NCBI RefSeq assembly: GCF_032854445.1
Contig: NC_088295.1
Location: 66,011,249 to 66,075,248 of the forward strand
Direction: 5' to 3'
Source: Liolophura sinensis
Taxonomy: Eukaryota; Mollusca; Polyplacophora; Chitonida; Chitonidae
Length of the DNA: 64,000 nt
A program made the translations under genes and the position numbers. Under the pieces are notes generated by a model that worked only from the letters and a program-made list of their open reading frames with translations, did not search any database and had not been told where the DNA came from. Positions 24,814 to 52,574 of this stretch are shown piece after piece (position 1 is the first letter of the stretch; every line of letters starts with the position of its first letter).

Positions 24814-27800
24814 TCAGCTTAACATTGCGCGTTTGATGGCCCGATATCTGTTAGTATCCAGCATGATGCTGATGAACTCCCGCCGCGATACCCGGCCATC
24901 TCCGGTAACGTCGGCTTCTTCCATCATCTCGCGCAGCATCGTGTTCGAGAACATGGCGTTTGTGACGTCAGCGGCCGCCCGAAGGTCCTCGAATGTAATG
25001 TAACCTTTGTCCTCTGTGTCAATCAAATTAAACCCCTAAAATGAGGAAAGATGTGACCCTATAAACATTCGTTGGCATTGATTAGCTTTAGAGATAAAGG
25101 GAAAATTTCCGAGCATCTCAATGCTACAGTCAGTGAAATTTTACAGCGTTACTACCTCCCCCCCACTCCGAATTATAAATAGGATTTGGCCCACTGTTTG
25201 CTCGTTATGGGTTTTGACAACAGAAGGTGAATAGTTTGTAATAATCCATGTGTAGAGCTCGTGTTGTTACGTGTCACTTACTAAAGGCAATTTTGGTAGA
25301 TAGTGCTGCTGATTTTACAGACAGCTGAATATAGGAGACTGGCTAAAAGAAGTGGGCTATAGCAGGTTCTATACAGTAGGCCTACGCCATTAAGTTTGTT
25401 TTTCGGCTATGATAGTTTTTAACCTCAGGTGGCTCTATGTTGAAAGTGTACTATGGCTGAGATTTTTCCTTACCGGCTTTGCTATGGAAGAGTTTAGTTA
25501 TGGAAAAATGAATTTTGACTTTAACGGCTTGTATACATGTAGTAAAACTTAACTCTGACTAAATAATGTGAGCACATTCCGCCTACCTGTACTATCTCCT
25601 CGAAGGGATCAGGCCCGTCGCCTTGACCAATAACCACTAGCTGGAGGAAATCATTGAAGTCCACGATACCTCGCTTTGTTTTGTCCAAGTTGGCTGAAGA
25701 AGAGAGACACCAAATGCAGCTGTACACGGAAATTTTTGACGTTTATTGAAGACAGTTATGGGACCAAGTAACCTGATAAGTTCCTTTTAATGACATACAC
25801 ACCGGCTATATTTTTCAATTTCTATTTACCGGCCCGGATAGCACAGTTGGTAGAGCGTCCGCTTCGGGACCGGTAGATCCAGGATCAATCCTTGGTCGAG
25901 TCACACCTAAGACTTTAAAAGAGGAAGTTGTAACTTCCTCGCTTGGCGTTCAGCATGAAGGGGATAGTGCAACGACTGGTTGACCCGTATCAGTATAATG
26001 GCTCGGGCGGGGCGGCTTACTTGCCTTCGGTAAGTCGTCTCAGTGATGCAGCACTAAATAAAAGAGCGGTGGAAATCCGTCCTGCAACAAGGAGGCACAT
26101 TACACGTGCATGCACCCTAATGATTCCTTCGTCGTCATATGACTGAAAAATTGTTGAGTACGACGTTAAACCCCAAGCACTCACTCACTCAATTTCTATT
26201 TTATATATTAGTAAAAATTTGTATTATACATACGTGTATGGATATGTATTGTGATGGGAGTAAAGTAACCTACTTGTATCTAAAAGACCAAAAAATATAT
26301 ATTTGTTCAAATATGTCAGTAGTTTGGTGCCAGTTTTGTTAATCTGATATTAATCTTATGCCTGGCTTGTGCGGTCTCCGTGGCGCAATGACACAGAAGA
26401 CCAATGCAGTCGCTGTGAGCTCAAGTCTCGCTCATGCTGGCTTTCTCTCCGGCCTTACGTGGGAAGGTCTGTCAGCAACATGGCTCCCTGGGCTCTACCG
26501 GGTTTCCTCCCATCAAAGTGCTAGCAGCCCTCGTACAAGTGAAATATTCATGAGTATGGCGTAATACACCGATAAATATATATATATACCTGCCTTGTAA
26601 TATTAATTTGAGCCAGTGGTGATGTGTGTCGATGTGTATTCATTCTCTGCCTAGGGAGGGAATCTCAGAAATTTCCCTGTGGTCGTAGTTCGGTTTGGTG
26701 TGGTTTTACATGAAATTCCATTAGGAGGCCACGCATTCCACAAATATGGCGTACAGCACACAATGTGGTTGAAAATCTGTGCGTTTCACTTGACAAGATT
26801 CGTCAGTTACCAACCATACGTTTACCCTGGTATCTCCATCCACACCTCTTTGAAACTGACCGCCGTCCTATAAATGCAATATTCTTGAATACTTAGCCCA
26901 AACATCAGTCATTAAATCTATTCTTAAATGGAAATTCTGAATGGAATGCAGAATTTTTAAAGCATCCTTATTTCCACGCTATCCTTGTTTCTTCTAACAT
27001 ACCGTAATGGAAAGATATACTGCGTTAGTTAATGAATATTTGGGATGAGCAAAAACAGAAGATATGTTGCTTCTGACTTTACTCCTATACATCAGGAGAT
27101 GCATACACGTATATATGTACATGCCTCTTCGGTAACTAACTCAATACAGGTATACCGGTGGGAGTGCATCCCCTCGTCTGCCTTTCAATCCATAAGTGTC
27201 ACTGAAATGAAATATATTCTCCAAGATTCCGTTTCGTTTAGTTATGAACTCAGACATACATGCACCTATTATTCTGACGTGCTCAAACTGGTAGGGCCTA
27301 CATGGCTCGATGCAGCTGTCAGTTCCTTGGCTAATGAGGTCGCGTGTTCGAATACAACCCTTGCTGGTTCGGTTCCTGTTTTAAGTCAGGAGGACTGTGT
27401 GAAAAGCAATACTTCTAAAATGCTTGTTCATATACTCACAGATTGAATCCTTGAGTACTCCTTTGCTTACACCAAATTTTAACATCTTCAACAATCGTTT
27501 CAGGTCAGATATTGTGATAAGTCTGCAAACAAGGATAACACACGTATTGGCTCATAACCTAAGAAACTCGCAAGTAGATGTTCACCTAAACTTATAGGAC
27601 GCATGCATTATTGTTTGAACATGAATTAGGGAAAATTCAATAATTCAAACTCTTTGTGTTATATACAAAGGCAAATGATAAGGAATCACAATAAACTAAG
27701 CAAATGTCTGAAATTTCTCTTTTGTAACGATCTCTTATGCATTAGGTCAAGACTACACCATTAACATTGTTGACGCGTTCTTTGCAAACTTACTGCTTAC

Positions 27801-35727: not shown

Positions 35728-36275
35728 AGGGGCCTCCGTGGCTTAGTTGGTTAGCGTGCTAGCGCAGTGTAATTATCCAGGAGCCTCTCACCAATGCAGT
35801 CGCTGTGAGTTCAAGCCCACCTCATTCTGGCTTCCTCTCCGGCCGTACTTGATTTTTTTTTTTTTTTTTTTTTTGATTGGTGAATATTTCACTTATACGA
35901 CGGCGGCCAGCATTATGGTGGGTGGAAACCGGGCAGAGCCCGGGGGAAACCCACGACCATCCGCAGGTTGCTGACAGACCTTCCCACGTACGGCCGGAGA
36001 GGAAGGCAGCATGGGCTGGTCTTGAACTCACAGCGACCGCATTGGTGAGAGGCTTCTGGGTCATTACGCTGCGCTAGAGCGCTAACCGACTGAGCCACGG
36101 AGGCCCCTCCGGCCGTACTTGGAAAGGTCTAGCAAAAACCTGCGGATGGTCGTGGGTTTCCCCCTGGGCTGTGTCCGGTTTCCTCCCACAATAATGCTGG
36201 TCGCCATCGTATAAGTGAAATATTCTTGAGTTTGACGTAAAACAGCAATCAAATAAAAAAATAAATAAATAAGCA
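35728..36275 (+). repeat. SINE family A, full length, split by a later SINE
   Basis: The head is at 35728-35851 (GGGGCCTCCGTGGCTTAGTT, with A and B boxes) and the remainder at 36107-36275 (GGAAAGGTCTAGCAAAAACC to a TAAATAAATAA tail). The break occurs inside the CCGGCCGTACTTG block. The two parts rejoin exactly if the inserted element and one duplicated target are removed. Confidence 0.92.
35852..36106 (-). repeat. SINE family A inserted into another SINE A, 15-bp TSD
   Basis: A minus-strand copy whose tail contains a run of about 22 T's and which ends GACTGAGCCACGGAGGCCCC. The host sequence CTCCGGCCGTACTTG is duplicated at 35837-35851 and 36107-36121. The inserted copy has lost part of the usual GTTTTACGCCGTACTCAAG end. 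Confidence 0.93.
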
Positions 36276-38271: not shown

Positions 38272-41200
38272 TCACTGGTACACACTCAACTTTTTACTGG
38301 ACGACGACTTCCCGGAGATCACTTTTTGTATCGCTTGTTTGAATTTCTGGGACGAACTTGTCTTTCTTTGCCTGCTATTATGAGTGATTTTAGTTTTCCT
38401 GTACTCCCGGTACAAATCCAAAAACATGTCTGTCACACAAGTCACTTGCGTCCAATCAGCCGCAGACACTTCTAGAAATTTGCATCCTAAGTCTTCGGCG
38501 AGTTCTCGCCCTTCTCTGCACGAGACTGTCCGAGAGTAAAGCAAGTCCACTTTGTTCGCCACAACCATGCCCACGATGCTGGTCGATTTTTTGGCATTCT
38601 CTACATACTTTTTAAGTGAAGCAAGCTCCTGAAAGCTTGGCCTGTCCGTGATGGAGTATACAAACATAAAACAATCTCCCCACATCGCGTAGCCGTCCCT
38701 GTGCACCTCGTTCATCTGCAAAACAGAAGAAGGAAACAAAGTGACAGAAACTGTAAAGGGTTCAACTTGTAGACACCATAAGAACACAACAACAATTTTT
38801 TGTACTTGACCAGAAATAGACTTTCATTTTGAGTACACTGTTGGCCCAGGCCTCCCCAGGCCAGCGAATGTCTAATTTGTTGTCGACAATGCGGCCAAAA
38901 GACTTTGAAAATTATTTACTCGTCAAATTTTGAGATCATTTACTCCCATGTTATTTCCCTTTGGAACATTCTACGGCTACAAACACGGAATTGCCTTGTT
39001 ATACGTTTGTACACATAAAAACGAAATTTGTCCAACATTTTAAGTCATAATACCCGACAATCTTAAACCTGCATGCTACTTGTCTCATGGCAAGAGTAAA
39101 ACACTACTCCATATTACAATACTGTTAGATATACTTTAGAATACGCAGATGTGATATTTGATAATTACAGGGCTAACCTTACTAAGTTAGGCGAAGATTA
39201 GAACATGTACAACGCAGAGCAGCTAGGATTAAAAAATCTTCAGAACTAAACCCTCTCAAAATCGTCCAGCATAAGCAATCAACAATGTTCCAAGACCTCT
39301 TCTCAAGAGGTCGCTGTGAGTTCAAGTCCAGCTCATGCTTTCTTCCTCTCCGGCGGTCAGTGGGAAGGTCAGGCAACAACCTGCGGATGGTCGTGGGTTT
39401 CCCCAGGACACCAACCATGATGCTGGCCGCCGTCGTATAAGAGAAATATTCTTGAGAACGGCGTTAAGCACCAATCAAGTAAATAAACAAATTAATAAAT
39501 AAACCACAACATACCTCAGCAGACCAGAAAAATACGCTAAAAGAGTACTGAGAATAGATAAATGAAGGACTATATGATCGTAAATCATCACCAGTGTTCT
39601 CATCTTGAGAACTCCATAGAACTTAAACCATACTGAATGGTTCAGGCTAAGAAATCAACAAACCTCACTAAATCTCTTATCATGGACCACCAAAGGTACG
39701 AAAACCTCGGTAATAAGTCACTGATCTTAGGGAACCTACGGCACATGAACATCACTAAATCAGCCCTGCTAAACTACTTTTGGAAATATGTGGATCCCTG
39801 CTGGAGATGCCACCATATAGCACTCCTGGGTGTGAAGGGGGGGGGGGGGGGGGAGGGGTAAAGCTGTTGTGTTAAGCGGTGTGGAAAGTTAGCTCTCAGA
39901 ACTATATCACGAATCTGTCAAAATGATGCACCTTAGCGATGAAATGACCTAGATTTGTTTATTATATTAAACTGAAGCCGTGGGCATAAATTCCATGGGC
40001 ACCATTATTTATCATGGCACATATACAAGGCGGACAGCTGCGAAGGAATCACGGTTTATAGCGTGCTTGACGAGTGACGATTTAGCAATTTCATTGAGAT
40101 GCGGGCGTTATAACTAAGTATCAAGGCCTAATAAAACTAGCTGGCCCGCAGACTGCACGGTGCTGTTAATGAAATGATAAGGTATAGCAAGCCAGAGATT
40201 GCATCGCGTCAGGTGAACTGAAGTTTATTTTAGAGTACACCAATGAGGGCCGGTTGAAGGTCTGATTGGCACGTGGCTGGGGAGATAGCTGTAACGAATT
40301 ATATAGGTCAGCTGTCGGTGGCACCCCCTGCACTGTTATCACAGTTAACCCAGAGTCGTTTTAGCAGGCATCTTAATGTACTCTGGCATTCCATACGAGC
40401 CTTTAGCCAATATAATATCTACAATAACACTGGCAAGTAAAGATGAGTTGACAGAAGAGCTAAAATGTCCACTCGTGCCTTTCCGTAACAATTGTTTACA
40501 AAAAGTTAAATAATGAATGAATTGAACAGTCCTTTTTCCTATAATTTAATATATATCTTTTGCTGCGTGTCCTTTAATTACTACATTTAGGCACTGCCTA
40601 ATCTAAAGTTTACAAACCTTTTCGTAGATTTTAAAAGCATGACTTAATATGCCTAAAGAGCAACTGGCTAATGCAGTTAAGTTCCTCATTTGTTGGCAAA
40701 GAATATAGATGGAGAGGTCTAAAACCTAAAACTATATAGAGCCCATCAACAATGGGTCGGATGTGAGGTCAAATCCAGCTTTTGTAAATGTCAACTATTT
40801 GTTTTGATTTCTTAAATTTAAACACACAACACATAGATAAGTCTACTGGAGGTAGTATTTTCGTTGCTAACAATGTTTTGTCTAACAAGAGCTTCACTGC
40901 ACATAAAATTGTGTTTTTAAAGAATACGCAAAAGATATGATATTGGCTCCCACGATCCAAATAACATACACGCTAAGAGAAACTTAAATTTGCCGGGAGA
41001 ACAAAATCAAGTAATATCCAGACCTAATCTGGAAAAACAAAACTTCCCTGACGCCATACTTAATAATATTTCACCTACATAGACAATGGCGGCCAGTTTT
41101 GTAAATGGTGGAAATCGTAGTGCCTGGGTTAAACCACTGCCCTTTGGCAAGTTAGGTGACTTGTTACGTACACACGCACACGCCATATTGCACTATCTTA

Positions 41201-44200
41201 ACGGAGTTACGTGCTTTCTGGTAGTCAGAATAACATACCTGGCCAGCAGTATCCAGTATTTCTAACCGAACCTCTTCGTCATCCACGCATGTGTTATACT
41301 TGTATATACTTTCTGAAACAGAAGGTCACAACATCGAATGGCATAGCGATGGATAGCAGTCCTAGGTTTAGAATATTTATTTTATTTATTTATTTTGATT
41401 GGTGTTTTACTCCATCATATATTTCACTTATACGACGGCAGCCAGCATTAATGGTGTGAGGAAACCAGGAAGAGCCTGGGGGAAACCCACAACCATCCAC
41501 AGGTTGCTGGAAAACCTTCCCACGTACGGCCAGAGAGGAAGCCAGCATGAGCTGGATTTGAGCTCACAGCGACCGCATGGTGAGAGGCTCCTGCGATAGC
41601 GCGCTAACCAACAGAGCCACGGAGGCCACCAGGTTTAGAACACAGTATGTGTGTTTTTGGATACATAAGTGCATGTACACTCAAAAAATTAATCTGTTAA
41701 GTTTAACAAGAAGTCTGTTGCCTGAGTCACACTAGAATGTATTCTGCTTTTGCAACGGATTATTCTGTTAAATATAACACGGACATGGTGTTATTTCAAC
41801 ATACAGATTCTATTAGGCTATAAAATGATGTTATGTTGAATGTGACACAGCATTGTGTTATAAAAACAGAATACATTCTAGCTTCAACAGAATTTCTGCA
41901 AAAACTCAGAGTGTATCTGTTTGTTTTAAATGAAACACCAATCAAATAAATAAATAAATGTATTCTTTTAGAGTTGTAACTTTCACAAGTACGTCAAATT
42001 TAATAACTCTAAATAATGTAGCTGTGCACTCCGAAGGTAAATATAAAACGTTGTCTATTAGGGAAACATAAAATGTGTTATGCGGGGCATATTTCCACGT
42101 ACCTACATGTACATATTATATGCTTGTAAACCTGTGTTCCGTTTCTGTTCTACTTCGTGAACCTCTGACTTGTGCACACGTACCCATCTTTGAGAGTAAA
42201 TTGTTGTTTGCTTACGTGTGTGATGAAGGAAAGAAAATTGCAACATTTTTTTTTACATAGTGCAAGAGTTAGAATTATGTGAGAGTGCATAGAAAGGCCG
42301 AATAAAAATAGTTGTCTGGCGTCGAAGTGCAAGTCTGCGCTGATGCAGCTCTCCGCATGCAAAGCTGCTGCACCTTAATGCATATGTTTGAGTTGAACAA
42401 CAGGGCAGTAAGTTATCCTGTTGGAGTTGAAAGTGATTAAGAGAGTTGATTAGTAGAGCAGCTGCGTGGGCCTTACAGTTAAGTCAGAAAAATTCTTCTG
42501 GAGACGTTTCTTTGGCCTTCTTCACCTATTTTGAACAGCGTACACACTGTTATATCTATAGCCCTAAACAAAACCACGTCCGAGTATAGGCTTATTTCAA
42601 AGCAAGCATAGGGTAGAGTCCATACTTTCTGGAAAAGCTCCTTGTTTACAACTTATTCAAATTGGATATAGCAGATTTATTTCAAGCAACTATGCTCTGA
42701 TAAACAAAATAAATGGGACATCTTTGCTGTGCCTAATGGACTGATCCACCACATCCGATGTCACACCACCCCTTCTCGTGACAACATTACTTTCCTGGTG
42801 GAACCAATTGTAACGTCATGACGTCGCATAAAGTGTCCGGTTGACGTCTTTGCAACAATACTACTTATGATTGGTCAATTGCGTGTTCTTGATTGACAGT
42901 TCGGAAAAGTCTATTCAAACCAAAGCCTCTGTCCTGCAGCAAGCATCTTACACATAGCAGCAGTTACACTGTATGTTACCCAAGCTGCATGTTACACTAT
43001 ATGTTACACAAGCTGCATGTTCACTGTATGTTACCCAAGCTGCATGTTACACAAGCTGCATGTTACACTGTATGTTACACAAGCTGCATGTTACACTGTA
43101 TGTTACACAAGCTGCATGTTACACTGTATGTTACACAAGCTGTATGTTACACTGTATGTTACACAAGCTGCATGTTACACTGTATCTTACAAAAAGATGA
43201 TCTCTACTCACCCAGTGTCGGACAATATTCTCCTATAAACCTCTTTGTAAGAAAACGCACTGTAAGGGCTGAAATGTAAACGATAGACAAACTGATTTAT
43301 TTTAACAAGAACAACTTGTACAAGGTAGAACTTCTTCGTATATTCCCTCTGGTAAATGTGGTAGCGTTCCTTCTCGTCTTAATGTCACCTTCAACATTAT
43401 TTATGTCATATATTACAGCTCGGACATTTACACAATGCTGAAACCGCTTTCATAACATTTTGCAAATCAATATTGCGTAATTTTTCTCAAAAAAAACGAC
43501 GTCACACGGACTAAAGGGATAACAATTACATGTACTTAGAATATCCCATTATGTTAAAGACCAGGATTTCAGCGGGACACTCTAATCACTCAGCCATCGT
43601 TATGCAGTCAAATGGAAAATCAGATTGCCGAGGAGGTGTCAAAGAGCAAATTAGTATCATTAATTTTAATGTTTTTCCACGCCAACACCATGCATATAAT
43701 ATTGGCATAAATAGCATTACATGGAACAACAACAACACAGCACACAGCAATCTTTAACATCATCATAACTTATGATACATGTCTGGCCTTGAAGGTATCT
43801 GAATGTAATTCAAAGTTCATTCTTTGGCATATACCAGTATATCTCCATCCTGTATTCGGTGTACGTTCATTTCCTAGCTAGATAGGGTGTGTTTGAGTTC
43901 TTCACGGACTGACAACTGCCACGCATTTTTTGCCCGCTCTCACACTACAAGTTATCCAAGGCTTGCTAGCAATTGAGAAGATGGCTAGGTGTTTACTGTG
44001 AACACGTGACCAATGTTATCATAACTTCATCACCTACACTAATTATACACAAAAACCATCAGTTGTAAGGTGATATTGCATGCTGACGTTGACTTCGCAG
44101 TTTTAATTAAGATAATGTGCCGTACTAGCCATGAGCAAGTGATTACATAAAAAAATGTTGATGTTGGCAATGAGGAAATTTGACCATGCTTTAGTAGTTT

Positions 44201-46616
44201 ACAGTGTGTGCATATAATATTTTGGGTCAAACACATATATACCAATTTTCAAGACTTTTATAACAGTTTCCTTATTGATACCACCGCATGTTTTTTTTTA
44301 AGTGACATGTGCAACTTGGCAATTCCCTTATTGGCACCAAAAGTGCACAGGTTAAGTTTTTTTAAAGTGATATATACAACATACAGTTCATTCAACTCTC
44401 CAAAAGCGCATGCGCTGGCTTCATATCACCACAACCATATGCACTAGACGATATTGACCTGTCGATCCCTTGTGGTACCCTTGATCTAGTGCAGATTGAG
44501 CTTCAAAACTTTTTTTGTCCTTACACTGACTTCCATCAATTCAAATCCATTCAAAAACCTCCACTGGAATCATTACCTGAATAAAAGGGATCTGCAACAA
44601 AGTGTTTAGGTTTTTCTTCCTGAACTTAATTCCTGCTTCATCAACGCGATTCGAGTATTTTTGGAGTAGATAAAGATTTCTGTCCACAAATATGCTAGTG
44701 GTGGGATTCATGTAAGACGGACACAGAAAGTTAAGCATGTCAGGGAGTTTGTAAACATCTGGTAATATTTATTTTATTTCTTTCTGTGTCCACAATAATT
44801 AGTTAGAGTATATGCATATTCCGTCCTATGTTAAACCATATTTGCCACCACCTTGTACAGGAACGACGTGAGGGCAAGTTGGTTAAATTAGGGTAACAGC
44901 GAGTTGCTGTATAAAATTAACAACACAACCGTAAATCTCTGTACTAGTTCACATGCCTTCTAATACACATAACGACTTCCTCATGCATTAATACAAAATA
45001 CGTGTCAAATTTCAGATTAAATAAACAGTAGGAACTGGGAAACTGGCAACATAATAAACACTAAGCTCACCCAAACGGTACACTCAAAAAAATAATCTGT
45101 CAATTTTAACAGAAACTCTCTTGTCTGAGTGAATATATTCTGTTATCATAACACAATATTCTGTCATTTTCAAGATACTATCCTCTTAGAGTAATAGAAT
45201 ATTTATGTAGAATTATTAGAATATGAGTGTAATATTTAACAGAATAATCGGCTGCAATAGCGGAATACATTCTACCATCATTCAGATAGAGAGACTTTCT
45301 GTTAACTTTAATAGATTTTTTTAAAGTCTATACCCTCGACCTTCAATAAATTCGACCAGTAAAGTATAATTATAAACTAACCTGGACAAATAACATTCCT
45401 CTGATATGCCAAAATATTCACGTTGTGCGTGGTCGAATTTATGGAATATTTAGGGTAGTTTCTCTGACTTTCCATTCAGGACGTTTCCATACTTCTAGGT
45501 TCCAAGCTCTAGATGTTCTGTTTTCTACCGCTGAATTAATTACTGAGACAGAACTTCACTACTGGAAAAGGAACGTAGGGGTCTGAAGAAAAGCTTATGA
45601 CATCCAATTTGTTTATTTTTTCAGTTTGATGAAGTCATTATTAATCTGATGAACAATTTGGATGCTGTAAAGTTAATGATGTGCTCCATCCACATGACAA
45701 TTTTCATATCTTTGCAAACCGTACTTGAAAAACGAAATGTGAAAAACCTTGAAGCATCTGGTCTGTTGTTCTCATAAACACAATATAATAGCACAACCTA
45801 TTTACGCGTACTGTATGTTCACTATCTCATGTATCAGTAGAATGCTTCACCATGCGGATATATCAATATAGATGCAGGTAGACGGGAATATCTCGTTGCT
45901 TTGTTTACAGGTTAGAATTATGACTAACATACTCTAGCCATTGGTACATGCACATACCCCTTGAGAAGACATGCATGGACTAATATTATGCGTAAATGAG
46001 TTTGCTTAGCGCCTGCAGAGAATCGCTGACAAATAACAAATGTATATGGTATTTGTTTTGCTACTTTGGATTCATATATACTTTCATACCGTCGTAATAC
46101 ATCTGAATTTTTCAGAAAAAAATTTGTTCAACAGTCATAATGCAGTTGTCAGAGAATATTTATTGACCATTAGGTATGAACATACGATGTGCGTTTTATT
46201 CGATTTATATTACATAAAGTTGTGTTCAGAGTATTTTCAGGTTGGGTGTTTTCAGTGTTTTCTATCTCGTATTAAGTTAGAGTAAACTGGAAATATATTC
46301 ATGATTGCTGACGTCCATATGCCATTGCACTCTACCGTTAACCATACGCTCACGAATGCCGGCGCTATCTATATGCAGAACATAATGAATGAGGCTTTGA
46401 GAGGCTTAGCTGAATCTAGCGTATAAAATGACACTAAAGATGGATTCTGATTTCGATGTATGATCCTCATTTCCTTTGAGGAAACTAGACATTTTCTTTT
46501 AAGCCTCACCTGTTTTTGCCCACCCCGGTGTTGCCTAAAATCACCATCCTACACACGTTCACATCCCTCATTTCGCCACCGTTGACCGCCAGGGCCTTCC
46601 CGCGTACTCCGTTCAT
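38272..46616 (-). CDS. RERG/RASL-type small GTPase, 4 exons, with a one-base frameshift in the P-loop
   Basis: Exons 46616-46510, 43268-43212, 41312-41239 and 38715-38272. Exon 2 is 57 nt and encodes the switch-I region (VRFLTKRFIGEY, then CPTLE). Exon 3 carries DTAGQ and exon 4 carries NKVDL and the SAA (G5) motif. There is no CAAX box: the tail ends KKLSVYQ after a Ser/Lys-rich stretch, as in RERG and RASL11/12. Exon 2 to 4 phases match exactly. Exon 1 as written ends GNTGVGKN plus two bases, out of phase with exon 2. With four rather than five A's at 46512-46516 (minus strand) it would read GVGKT-A and join exon 2 perfectly. So there is either an assembly error or a true inactivating +1 insertion. 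Expected length about 226 aa. The conserved YDPT is YCPT here. RERG-type proteins are non-lipidated Ras relatives linked to growth control. An upstream 5' exon is possible. Confidence 0.87.
39309..39495 (+). repeat. SINE family A, 5'-truncated, in a Ras-like gene intron
   Basis: Begins GGTCGCTGTGAGTTCAAGTC and ends CACCAATCAAGTAAATAAAC; the GGGCTGTGCCCGG part is deleted. It lies in intron 3 of the small-GTPase gene, opposite in strand to the gene. Confidence 0.85.
41041..41185 (+). repeat. SINE-like repeat family C, partial
   Basis: Contains AATGGCGGCCAGTTTTG, then TAGTGCCTGGGTTAAACCAC and CCCTTTGGCAAGTTAGGTG, resembling 10201-10370 (reverse) and 1071-1165. It stops 50 bp short of exon 3 of the small GTPase. 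Confidence 0.55.
41376..41627 (-). repeat. SINE family A, near full length
   Basis: From TTTATTTATTTATTTTGATT to CCAACAGAGCCACGGAGGCC on the minus strand. The GCCGTACTCAAGAAT block is deleted to TCCATCATA, leaving a recognisable but aged copy just upstream of GTPase exon 3. Confidence 0.85.
41676..41913. mobile_element. MITE-like element, copy 1 (diverged)
   Basis: ACTCAAAAAATTAATCTGTT at the left and AAACTCAGAGTG at the right, with an AT-rich body containing repeated TATTCTGTT and AACACGG motifs. It resembles the element at 45083-45325 in both ends and body. No coding capacity. Confidence 0.6.
42966..43190. repeat. Tandem array, 28-bp unit, about 8 copies, adjacent to GTPase exon 2
   Basis: ACACTGTATGTTACACAAGC plus TGCATGTT repeated, with one shortened unit near 43020-43062. 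It lies 22 bp downstream of the 57-nt exon 43268-43212, immediately inside the following intron. Open frames across it are a consequence of the repeat. Confidence 0.9.
45083..45325. mobile_element. MITE-like element, copy 2, with about 37-bp TIRs
   Basis: The left end CACTCAAAAAAATAATCTGT (then CAATTTTAACAGAAACTCT) pairs with the right end AGAGACTTTCTGTTAACTTT (then AATAGATTTTTTT) as imperfect inverted repeats. The internal sequence is AT-rich with no open frame. It lies in the long intron 1 of the small GTPase. Confidence 0.7.
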
Positions 46617-51034: not shown

Positions 51035-52574
51035 AACTACCAGGCAAAAGAAAGGTTTCACCGTATTTTTGTCATAAAAAAAGTAAAAGCGCGGTTCCGG
51101 GTTTGATTCTAAGTAGGACTTAGTGTATGACTGCATCGTTTCCTCTACCAGAACGCATCGTCACGAACGCAGCAATTGGAATTGTGAAATTGCCACCACA
51201 TACAAAACGTCCTTTTGAGGCATGGCTCGTGATGCACGTCCGGTAATGTTGCATAAATACTCTTGCTCGAAAGAGCAGACATTCAGTGACCGAAAAAACA
51301 CCAACAGTATGCCAAGACTTACGCAAACGCAACGAGGCCAGGCCATCGGTATGTCCACCATGGGAGTCTCGCAACGTCACATTGCAAGAACGTTCAACTG
51401 CAGCCAAACCACCATCAGGAGGTTGTTGATACGCTATCAGCAGACAGGCCAGACCCAAGACAGACCAAGATCGGGAAGACCGAGGGTAACAACTGCGGCT
51501 GATGATCGCTACATCAGGCAGATCCACCTTCGAAACCGATTCGTCACGGCGACGTCAACAGCGTCGACGGCACTAAGCCATGTCATCAGCCCCAGAACAA
51601 CACTGCGTCGTCTTCGTTCAGCTGGTTTACGACCTTACCGCCCCTTCCGTGGGATGGCCTTGACCCTTTTACACCGTCAACGCAGATTGCGATGGGCACG
51701 TATTGTACGTCGGTGGCAGCGACGTGACTGGGCAAGAGTGCTGTTTACAGACGAGAGCAGGTTCTGTCTATTCAGGAACGATGGCAGAGTTCGAGTTTTC
51801 CGACGAAGAGGCGAGCGTCTCGCGCCAAACTGCGTAAGAGTTTGGTGGCGGAGGCGTCATGGTTTAGGGAGGGATTTATGACCAAATGAAGACGCAGCTG
51901 GTTATTGTGTGAGGTAATCTGACTGGCCAGCGATACGTTGATGAGGTACTGAGACCTGTCGTCGTTCCATTCCTCCAACGACAGCCAAGAGGATTGATCT
52001 TGCAACACGACAACGCAAGACCTCACACTGCCCGCATTGTTACAGACTACCTCGAGACCGCAAACGTCATCGTGTTGCCCTGGCCAGCCAACTCACCAGA
52101 CATGAACCCCATTGAGCATCTCTGGGATCACCTTGACCGCCGTTTGAGACAGCTGGTGCCTCCTCCAACTAACCAACAGGAACTTGAGCAAGCTCTGTTA
52201 AACCTATGGAGCCTTATCCTTGTTGACGTCATCCGGCGACTGACGACGTCAATGCTGAGGCGTGTGCTTGCTTGCATTGATGCCCAGGGTGGCCACACTC
52301 GCTACTGATGGCTGTAGTCCTTCATTTCTGTGGATACTGTGACTTTACATGCACTTGCCAGTTAACTTTACATTTGTGTAATTTTTTCTTCTTACCCCTT
52401 GTCTCTTTCATTGTGTTTTGTGGCCAATTGAATGCCAATATTTTAAAGCATTTTTCAGAGAATATTTCACAATGATTCCTGTTTATAAACCAATCCTCTT
52501 AATTCTTATATCTGCCTTTGTTTTTCTTTTATGGGCTCAAGAAGTGGGTGAAACCTTTCTTTTGCCTGGTAGTA
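51035..52574 (+). mobile_element. Tc1-like transposon (copy 1), with TIRs
   Basis: About 1.54 kb. Left TIR ACTACCAGGCAAAAGAAAGG plus TTTCACC matches the reverse complement at the right end for at least 27 bp. TA dinucleotides flank the ends (51033-51034 and 52575-52576). It holds a broken DD34E transposase. The TIR core is shared with the element at 60863-62400, with CCAGGC in place of CCGGGC. Confidence 0.93.
51309..52308 (+). pseudogene. Tc1-type transposase, inactivated
   Basis: The reading frame starts MPRLTQTQRGQAIGMSTMGV, with a paired helix-turn-helix/homeo-like N-terminal region (FNCSQTTIRRLL, RPRSGRPRVTT), then the catalytic VLFTDESRF (first Asp). Near 51834-51850 a deletion shifts the frame, and in the frame that continues two stops follow (in the usual VMVWGG block and before GNLTGQ). 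The C-terminal part from about 51950 keeps HDNARPHTA (second Asp) and NSPDMNPIEHLWD (Glu, 34 residues later), ending GGHTRY and TGA at 52308. Transposases of this family cut and paste at TA sites. This copy cannot make a full enzyme. Confidence 0.92.

Follow-up and report, generated by a model that had tools for sequence, protein, structure and literature searches.

A surplus adenine in the P-loop exon of a RERG-like small GTPase gene of a chiton, probably an error of the assembly

The Rerg/Rasl11-12 subfamily is composed of Ras-family GTPases that have no lipidation signals (PMC2186344), and RERG (RAS-like estrogen-regulated growth inhibitor) is represented among solved structures by the human protein, PDB 2ATV. 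The gene considered here is, as judged from its sequence, a four-exon RERG/RASL-type small GTPase of the Ras family. It occupies positions 46616-38272 of the minus strand in a stretch of 64,000 nucleotides of chiton genome (NC_088295.1, 66,011,249 to 66,075,248), which is called the window hereafter. Its first exon has a run of five A's shortly before the donor site, and the gene can be read in two ways, as written (A5) or with one A less (A4).

The A4 protein finds its best solved-structure match in human RERG (1.3e-46, residues 22-189), with 162 bits versus 114 bits for RAP2A, the next in score, so RERG is nearer to it than are the other Ras-family proteins. This match, together with the conserved columns given further below, makes the A4 reading more than a product of chance. 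Both proteins are 49% identical over the aligned core, have the stretch LTKRFI.EY.PTLES in common and carry a non-glycine residue at Ras position 12. However, the window protein presents ANKVD in place of GNKxD and EVSA in place of ETSA/ECSA. The C-terminal CAAX lipidation motif is absent, since the protein ends in KSSSSKKLSVYQ. The RASL11/RASL12 branch is likewise described as free of lipidation signals (PMC2186344), and no structure of that branch was present among the best 60 PDB matches of the A4 protein.

The chiton genome also carries a likely RERG orthologue on C6 (58.2 Mb), with the RERG-like tail QVKQVISKVLRG. In the window gene, too, an intron follows GK[S/T] and the tail has a comparable KQ.I, but with the likely orthologue on C6 the gene itself is taken as a RERG paralogue. 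In addition, divergent RERG-like paralogues (L005, L010, L015, L016 and L019, at 55-63 Mb of C1) are spread together with the window gene (66.05 Mb) over some 11 Mb of C1, and in one of them, L010, ANKxDL replaces GNKxDL as it does in the window gene. Neither a second copy nor the other haplotype of the window gene was found in the assembly, and its relatives there are only about 29-43% identical over the main matches, which argues that it is not a decaying recent duplicate.

The features of the gene are collected in Table 1. All the introns are GT-AG, and the six splice sites are canonical and have good flanks (CAG/GTGAGG and TTTCAG/CC; TGG/GTGAGT and TTTCAG/AA; CAG/GTATGT and TTGCAG/AT, where the slash marks the exon boundary). 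Intron 2 contains a minisatellite with units of 28/44 nt (window 42943-43191), which on the minus strand begins some 20 nt after exon 2.

Table 1. Positions in the window of the features of the RERG/RASL-like gene.
Feature	Position	Strand	Remarks
Exon 1, RERG/RASL-like small GTPase gene	46510..46616	-	From ATG to donor CAG/GTGAGG; ends in P-loop GNTGVGK; joined A4 protein matches Pfam Ras
Run of five A's (TTTTT on the + strand)	46513..46517	-	One base above what the family intron phase allows
Upstream AG, alternative acceptor	43292..43293	-	23 nt before exon 2; gives back the frame as GVGKNSLSIVYISALTVRF; probably not functional
Exon 2 (ALTVRFLTKRFIGEYCPTL)	43212..43268	-	Phase 1 at both ends; starts CC CTT ACA GTG
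Exon 3 (ESIYKYNTCVDDEEVRLEILDTAGQ, G3 motif DTAGQ)	41239..41312	-	Phase 1 to 0
Exon 4 (MNEVHRDG... NKVD ... VSAAD ... KLSVYQ, stop TGA)	38272..38715	-	G4 and G5 motifs; without C-terminal CAAX

A preliminary description of this DNA had claimed that exons 2 to 4 join in phase, that exon 1 ends one base out and that reading A4 instead of A5 restores GVGKT and opens the gene, and the joined translation bears this out. Exons 2, 3 and 4 are in frame with each other. Exon 1 (107 nt) ends in ...GGC AAA AAC AG/GTGAGG at phase 2, while exon 2 requires phase 1, so the junction GGCAAAAACAG/GTGAGG is off by one base. The joined message as written gives ...GVGKNSPYSAFSYKEVYRRILSDTGKYIQV followed by an early stop, and its product has no match to any Pfam family, as expected from the loss of frame that the same description had announced. 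With A4, 226 codons are open (226 amino acids), the P-loop reads GVGKT with the junction GVGKTALTVRF, and the protein is recognized as Ras (PF00071, 3.3e-36). The GTPase motifs are complete in this reading only, in which GTP binding and hydrolysis are predicted. Whichever of the five A's is dropped, the result is GK-T-G/, consistent with the family, and GK[S/T] was not obtained by dropping a different base of GGCAAAAACAG. The surplus A had thus been located correctly, but the interval given for it, 46510-46520, covers the whole of GGCAAAAACAG, and the run itself is confined to 46513-46517.

The phase of the intron was compared with that in two relatives from this genome, those for which exon 1 could be located. 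In the likely C6 orthologue, exon 1 ends GGC AAG TCG G/GTAAGT and exon 2 starts CT GTC GTT; in the relative at C1:61.50 Mb, exon 1 ends GGG AAA TCA G/GTAAGA. The window gene has its donor and acceptor where the family has them, and exon 2 keeps phase 1, while exon 1 needs four A's to fit. As the phase-1 intron of both relatives falls one base earlier, the A5 run holds one surplus base. The usual RERG exon structure claimed for this gene is therefore borne out by the phase-1 intron after GK[S/T] in these two relatives, and RERG is also the best PDB match.

A real A5 could still be accommodated if the frame were restored by another splice or by a +1 shift of the ribosome, with an unusual P-loop such as GVGKNSLSIVYISALTVRF as the result. 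A transcript spliced back into phase is the outcome that would have overturned the preliminary description, and 27 frame-restoring combinations do exist on paper among the donor/acceptor pairs enumerated near exons 1 and 2. The nearest one that keeps the real donor uses the acceptor 23 nt upstream (AAATAAATCAG), which yields an open reading frame and lengthens the P-loop by eight residues at its end. Nevertheless, GK[S/T] is retained in none of the 27 combinations, each of which destroys or disrupts the P-loop. The pyrimidine tract of the upstream site is poor, whereas the acceptor in use (TTTACATTTCAG) and the donor CAG/GTGAGG look strong, and exon 2 of the relatives begins at the ordinary junction. 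Moreover, scanning the minus strand for the motif, both upstream and within intron 1, revealed no further credible P-loop. Concerning the ribosome, a -1 shift at the A run would not reach the right frame, and a +1 shift would be required, for which no signal is known. A run of five A's is also below the length of known transcriptional slippage. Taking all this into account, a rescue by splicing or by a ribosomal shift seems extremely improbable.

With respect to the origin of the fifth A, assemblies made from HiFi reads with hifiasm keep residual indel errors, many of which fall in homopolymers, and base errors are documented that displace the coding frame (PMC11429912). The available part of the description of the Liolophura japonica genome, taken to be the assembly of the window, reports 14x HiFi reads (8.77 Gb), hifiasm and purge_dups, 632 scaffolds of 609.5 Mb in which one haplotype was kept, and an animal with 1.24% heterozygosity, and in that part the polishing step is not named (PMC11068029). 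The errors described in long-read assemblies are, like the surplus A, single-base indels in runs that can shift the frame. However, they are mostly reported from longer homopolymers and from tandem repeats (PMC11429912), and the run considered here has only five bases, which counts against an error.

Because the gene is single-copy and its relatives are distant, there is no close sister for a direct test, and frame breaks elsewhere in the assembly were therefore examined. Frame-broken copies were compared with their sister copies, and synonymous and replacement codon differences were counted. The tubulin arrays on C6, C7 and C8 (L038, L041, L044, L046, L048, L050 and L052) contain isolated one-base indels, and several of their copies have almost no replacements. 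L048 carries three +1 insertions with 24:0 synonymous to replacement differences, L044 (C5 to C6) shows 13:1, L038 with its two +1 insertions shows 88:7, and L041 (C3 to C4) shows 10:0 in the exon compared, which is the one after the insertion. The isolated +1 bases in these frame-broken genes are C3 to C4, C5 to C6, T1 to T2 and C2 to C3. Three genuine knockouts in one tubulin gene with 0 replacements would have a probability of about 1e-3 to 1e-10 under the assumptions made. Since genes so constrained are not long dead and three fresh knockouts in one of them are not credible, the +1 bases are most simply errors, and it is likely that the tubulin one-base indels are base-level errors of the assembly that will mislead annotation. 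The same type of error thus occurs in constrained genes elsewhere in the assembly. These copies were chosen for their broken frame, so they show that such errors exist and not how often they arise. In the Ras, actin, HSP70 and galactosyltransferase screens no equally clear artefact was recognized, and for this reason the tubulin arrays may be of below-average quality. GPCR genes were left out as a basis for a rate, since their listing covers the best-scoring candidates, and L067, from the sulfotransferase and fucosyltransferase candidates, was not counted as a control, as its one frame change is possibly an intron.

The clear pseudogenes of the assembly look different, with stops, long deletions and many replacements. 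A galactosyltransferase copy shows 21:50 synonymous to replacement differences and a 7-nt loss, a fucosyltransferase copy shows 23:64 and a 31-nt loss, and other pseudogenes give 6:15 and 4:23. L070 and L075, from the sulfotransferase/fucosyltransferase set, look like true pseudogenes. The HSP70 copy L054 (C1:28749800-28751900), with an 8-nt deletion and 9:8 against its neighbour, is probably a real pseudogene as well.

Regarding these data, the window gene could be a fixed pseudogene of L. japonica inactivated by the surplus A, given that a frame-breaking lesion is present in the assembly, that the product as written has no Pfam match and that the gene is single-copy and not readable otherwise. 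Against this, no second lesion appears in its 681 coding bases, nothing is wrong with its splice sites or its G motifs, and the other pseudogenes of this genome carry the stops, long deletions and many replacements mentioned above. Nor were the extra lesions or the excess of replacements of relaxed constraint seen: human RERG, chiton RERG, RAP2A and RIT1 have 42 invariant columns in common, and the A4 protein keeps 37 of them. A fixed pseudogene is accordingly considered very unlikely.

A recent and real fifth A would leave much the same picture. The sequenced animal would then carry a loss-of-function allele, probably on one haplotype, while the gene is intact in the species, and the message would hit an early stop and be degraded. 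Frame-breaking alleles are frequent in outbred marine invertebrates. A young null allele is also a single clean frameshift with all else intact, and one that is heterozygous in a wild, outbred animal would have the same look in an assembly; the heterozygosity and the single haplotype kept, as given in the portion of the genome description cited above, agree with it. On the other hand, isolated +1 slips of the same kind are found here in strongly constrained genes, so an error needs no extra event, and a null allele is a somewhat doubtful explanation.

Apart from the single surplus base the window gene is undamaged, and in this it resembles the error class of the tubulin copies. An error is favoured on two grounds, the soundness of all the remaining gene and the similar one-letter slips in healthy genes of the same assembly. 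Hence, the fifth A at 46513-46517 is, in our assessment, probably a one-base insertion error of the HiFi assembly, a reading that we infer for this particular A. The ordinary GTPase gene would then be intact in the animal and the surplus A would have been added during sequencing or assembly. The preliminary description had offered a choice between a homopolymer error and a fresh pseudogene; this pair of options is well founded, and the contrast of the tubulin control with the true pseudogenes tips it toward the error.

Other elements were noticed in the window. On the plus strand, 51219-52308 holds a decayed remnant of a Tc1/mariner-type transposase, with one open frame for HTH_Tnp_Tc3_2 and another for DDE_3, and 25832-25903 gives a weak Rfam match to tRNA. 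Near 36080 and 41600, on the minus strand, tRNA-derived SINE-like sequence (GGCCTCCGTGGCTC...GGTTAGCGC) was identified by eye.

If the extra A were real and common in L. japonica, which we hold to be very improbable, the lineage would just have lost one member of a small group of RERG-like GTPases on chromosome 1, or would read it through an unusual splice that disrupts the P-loop. The locus is instead an ordinary and probably functional RERG/RASL-type GTPase gene. As the assembly stands, a gene caller will truncate or skip it, and a pseudogene census of the chiton would come out too high. For this assembly, the tubulin comparison suggests that isolated +1 bases without replacements should be taken as errors until they are checked in the reads.
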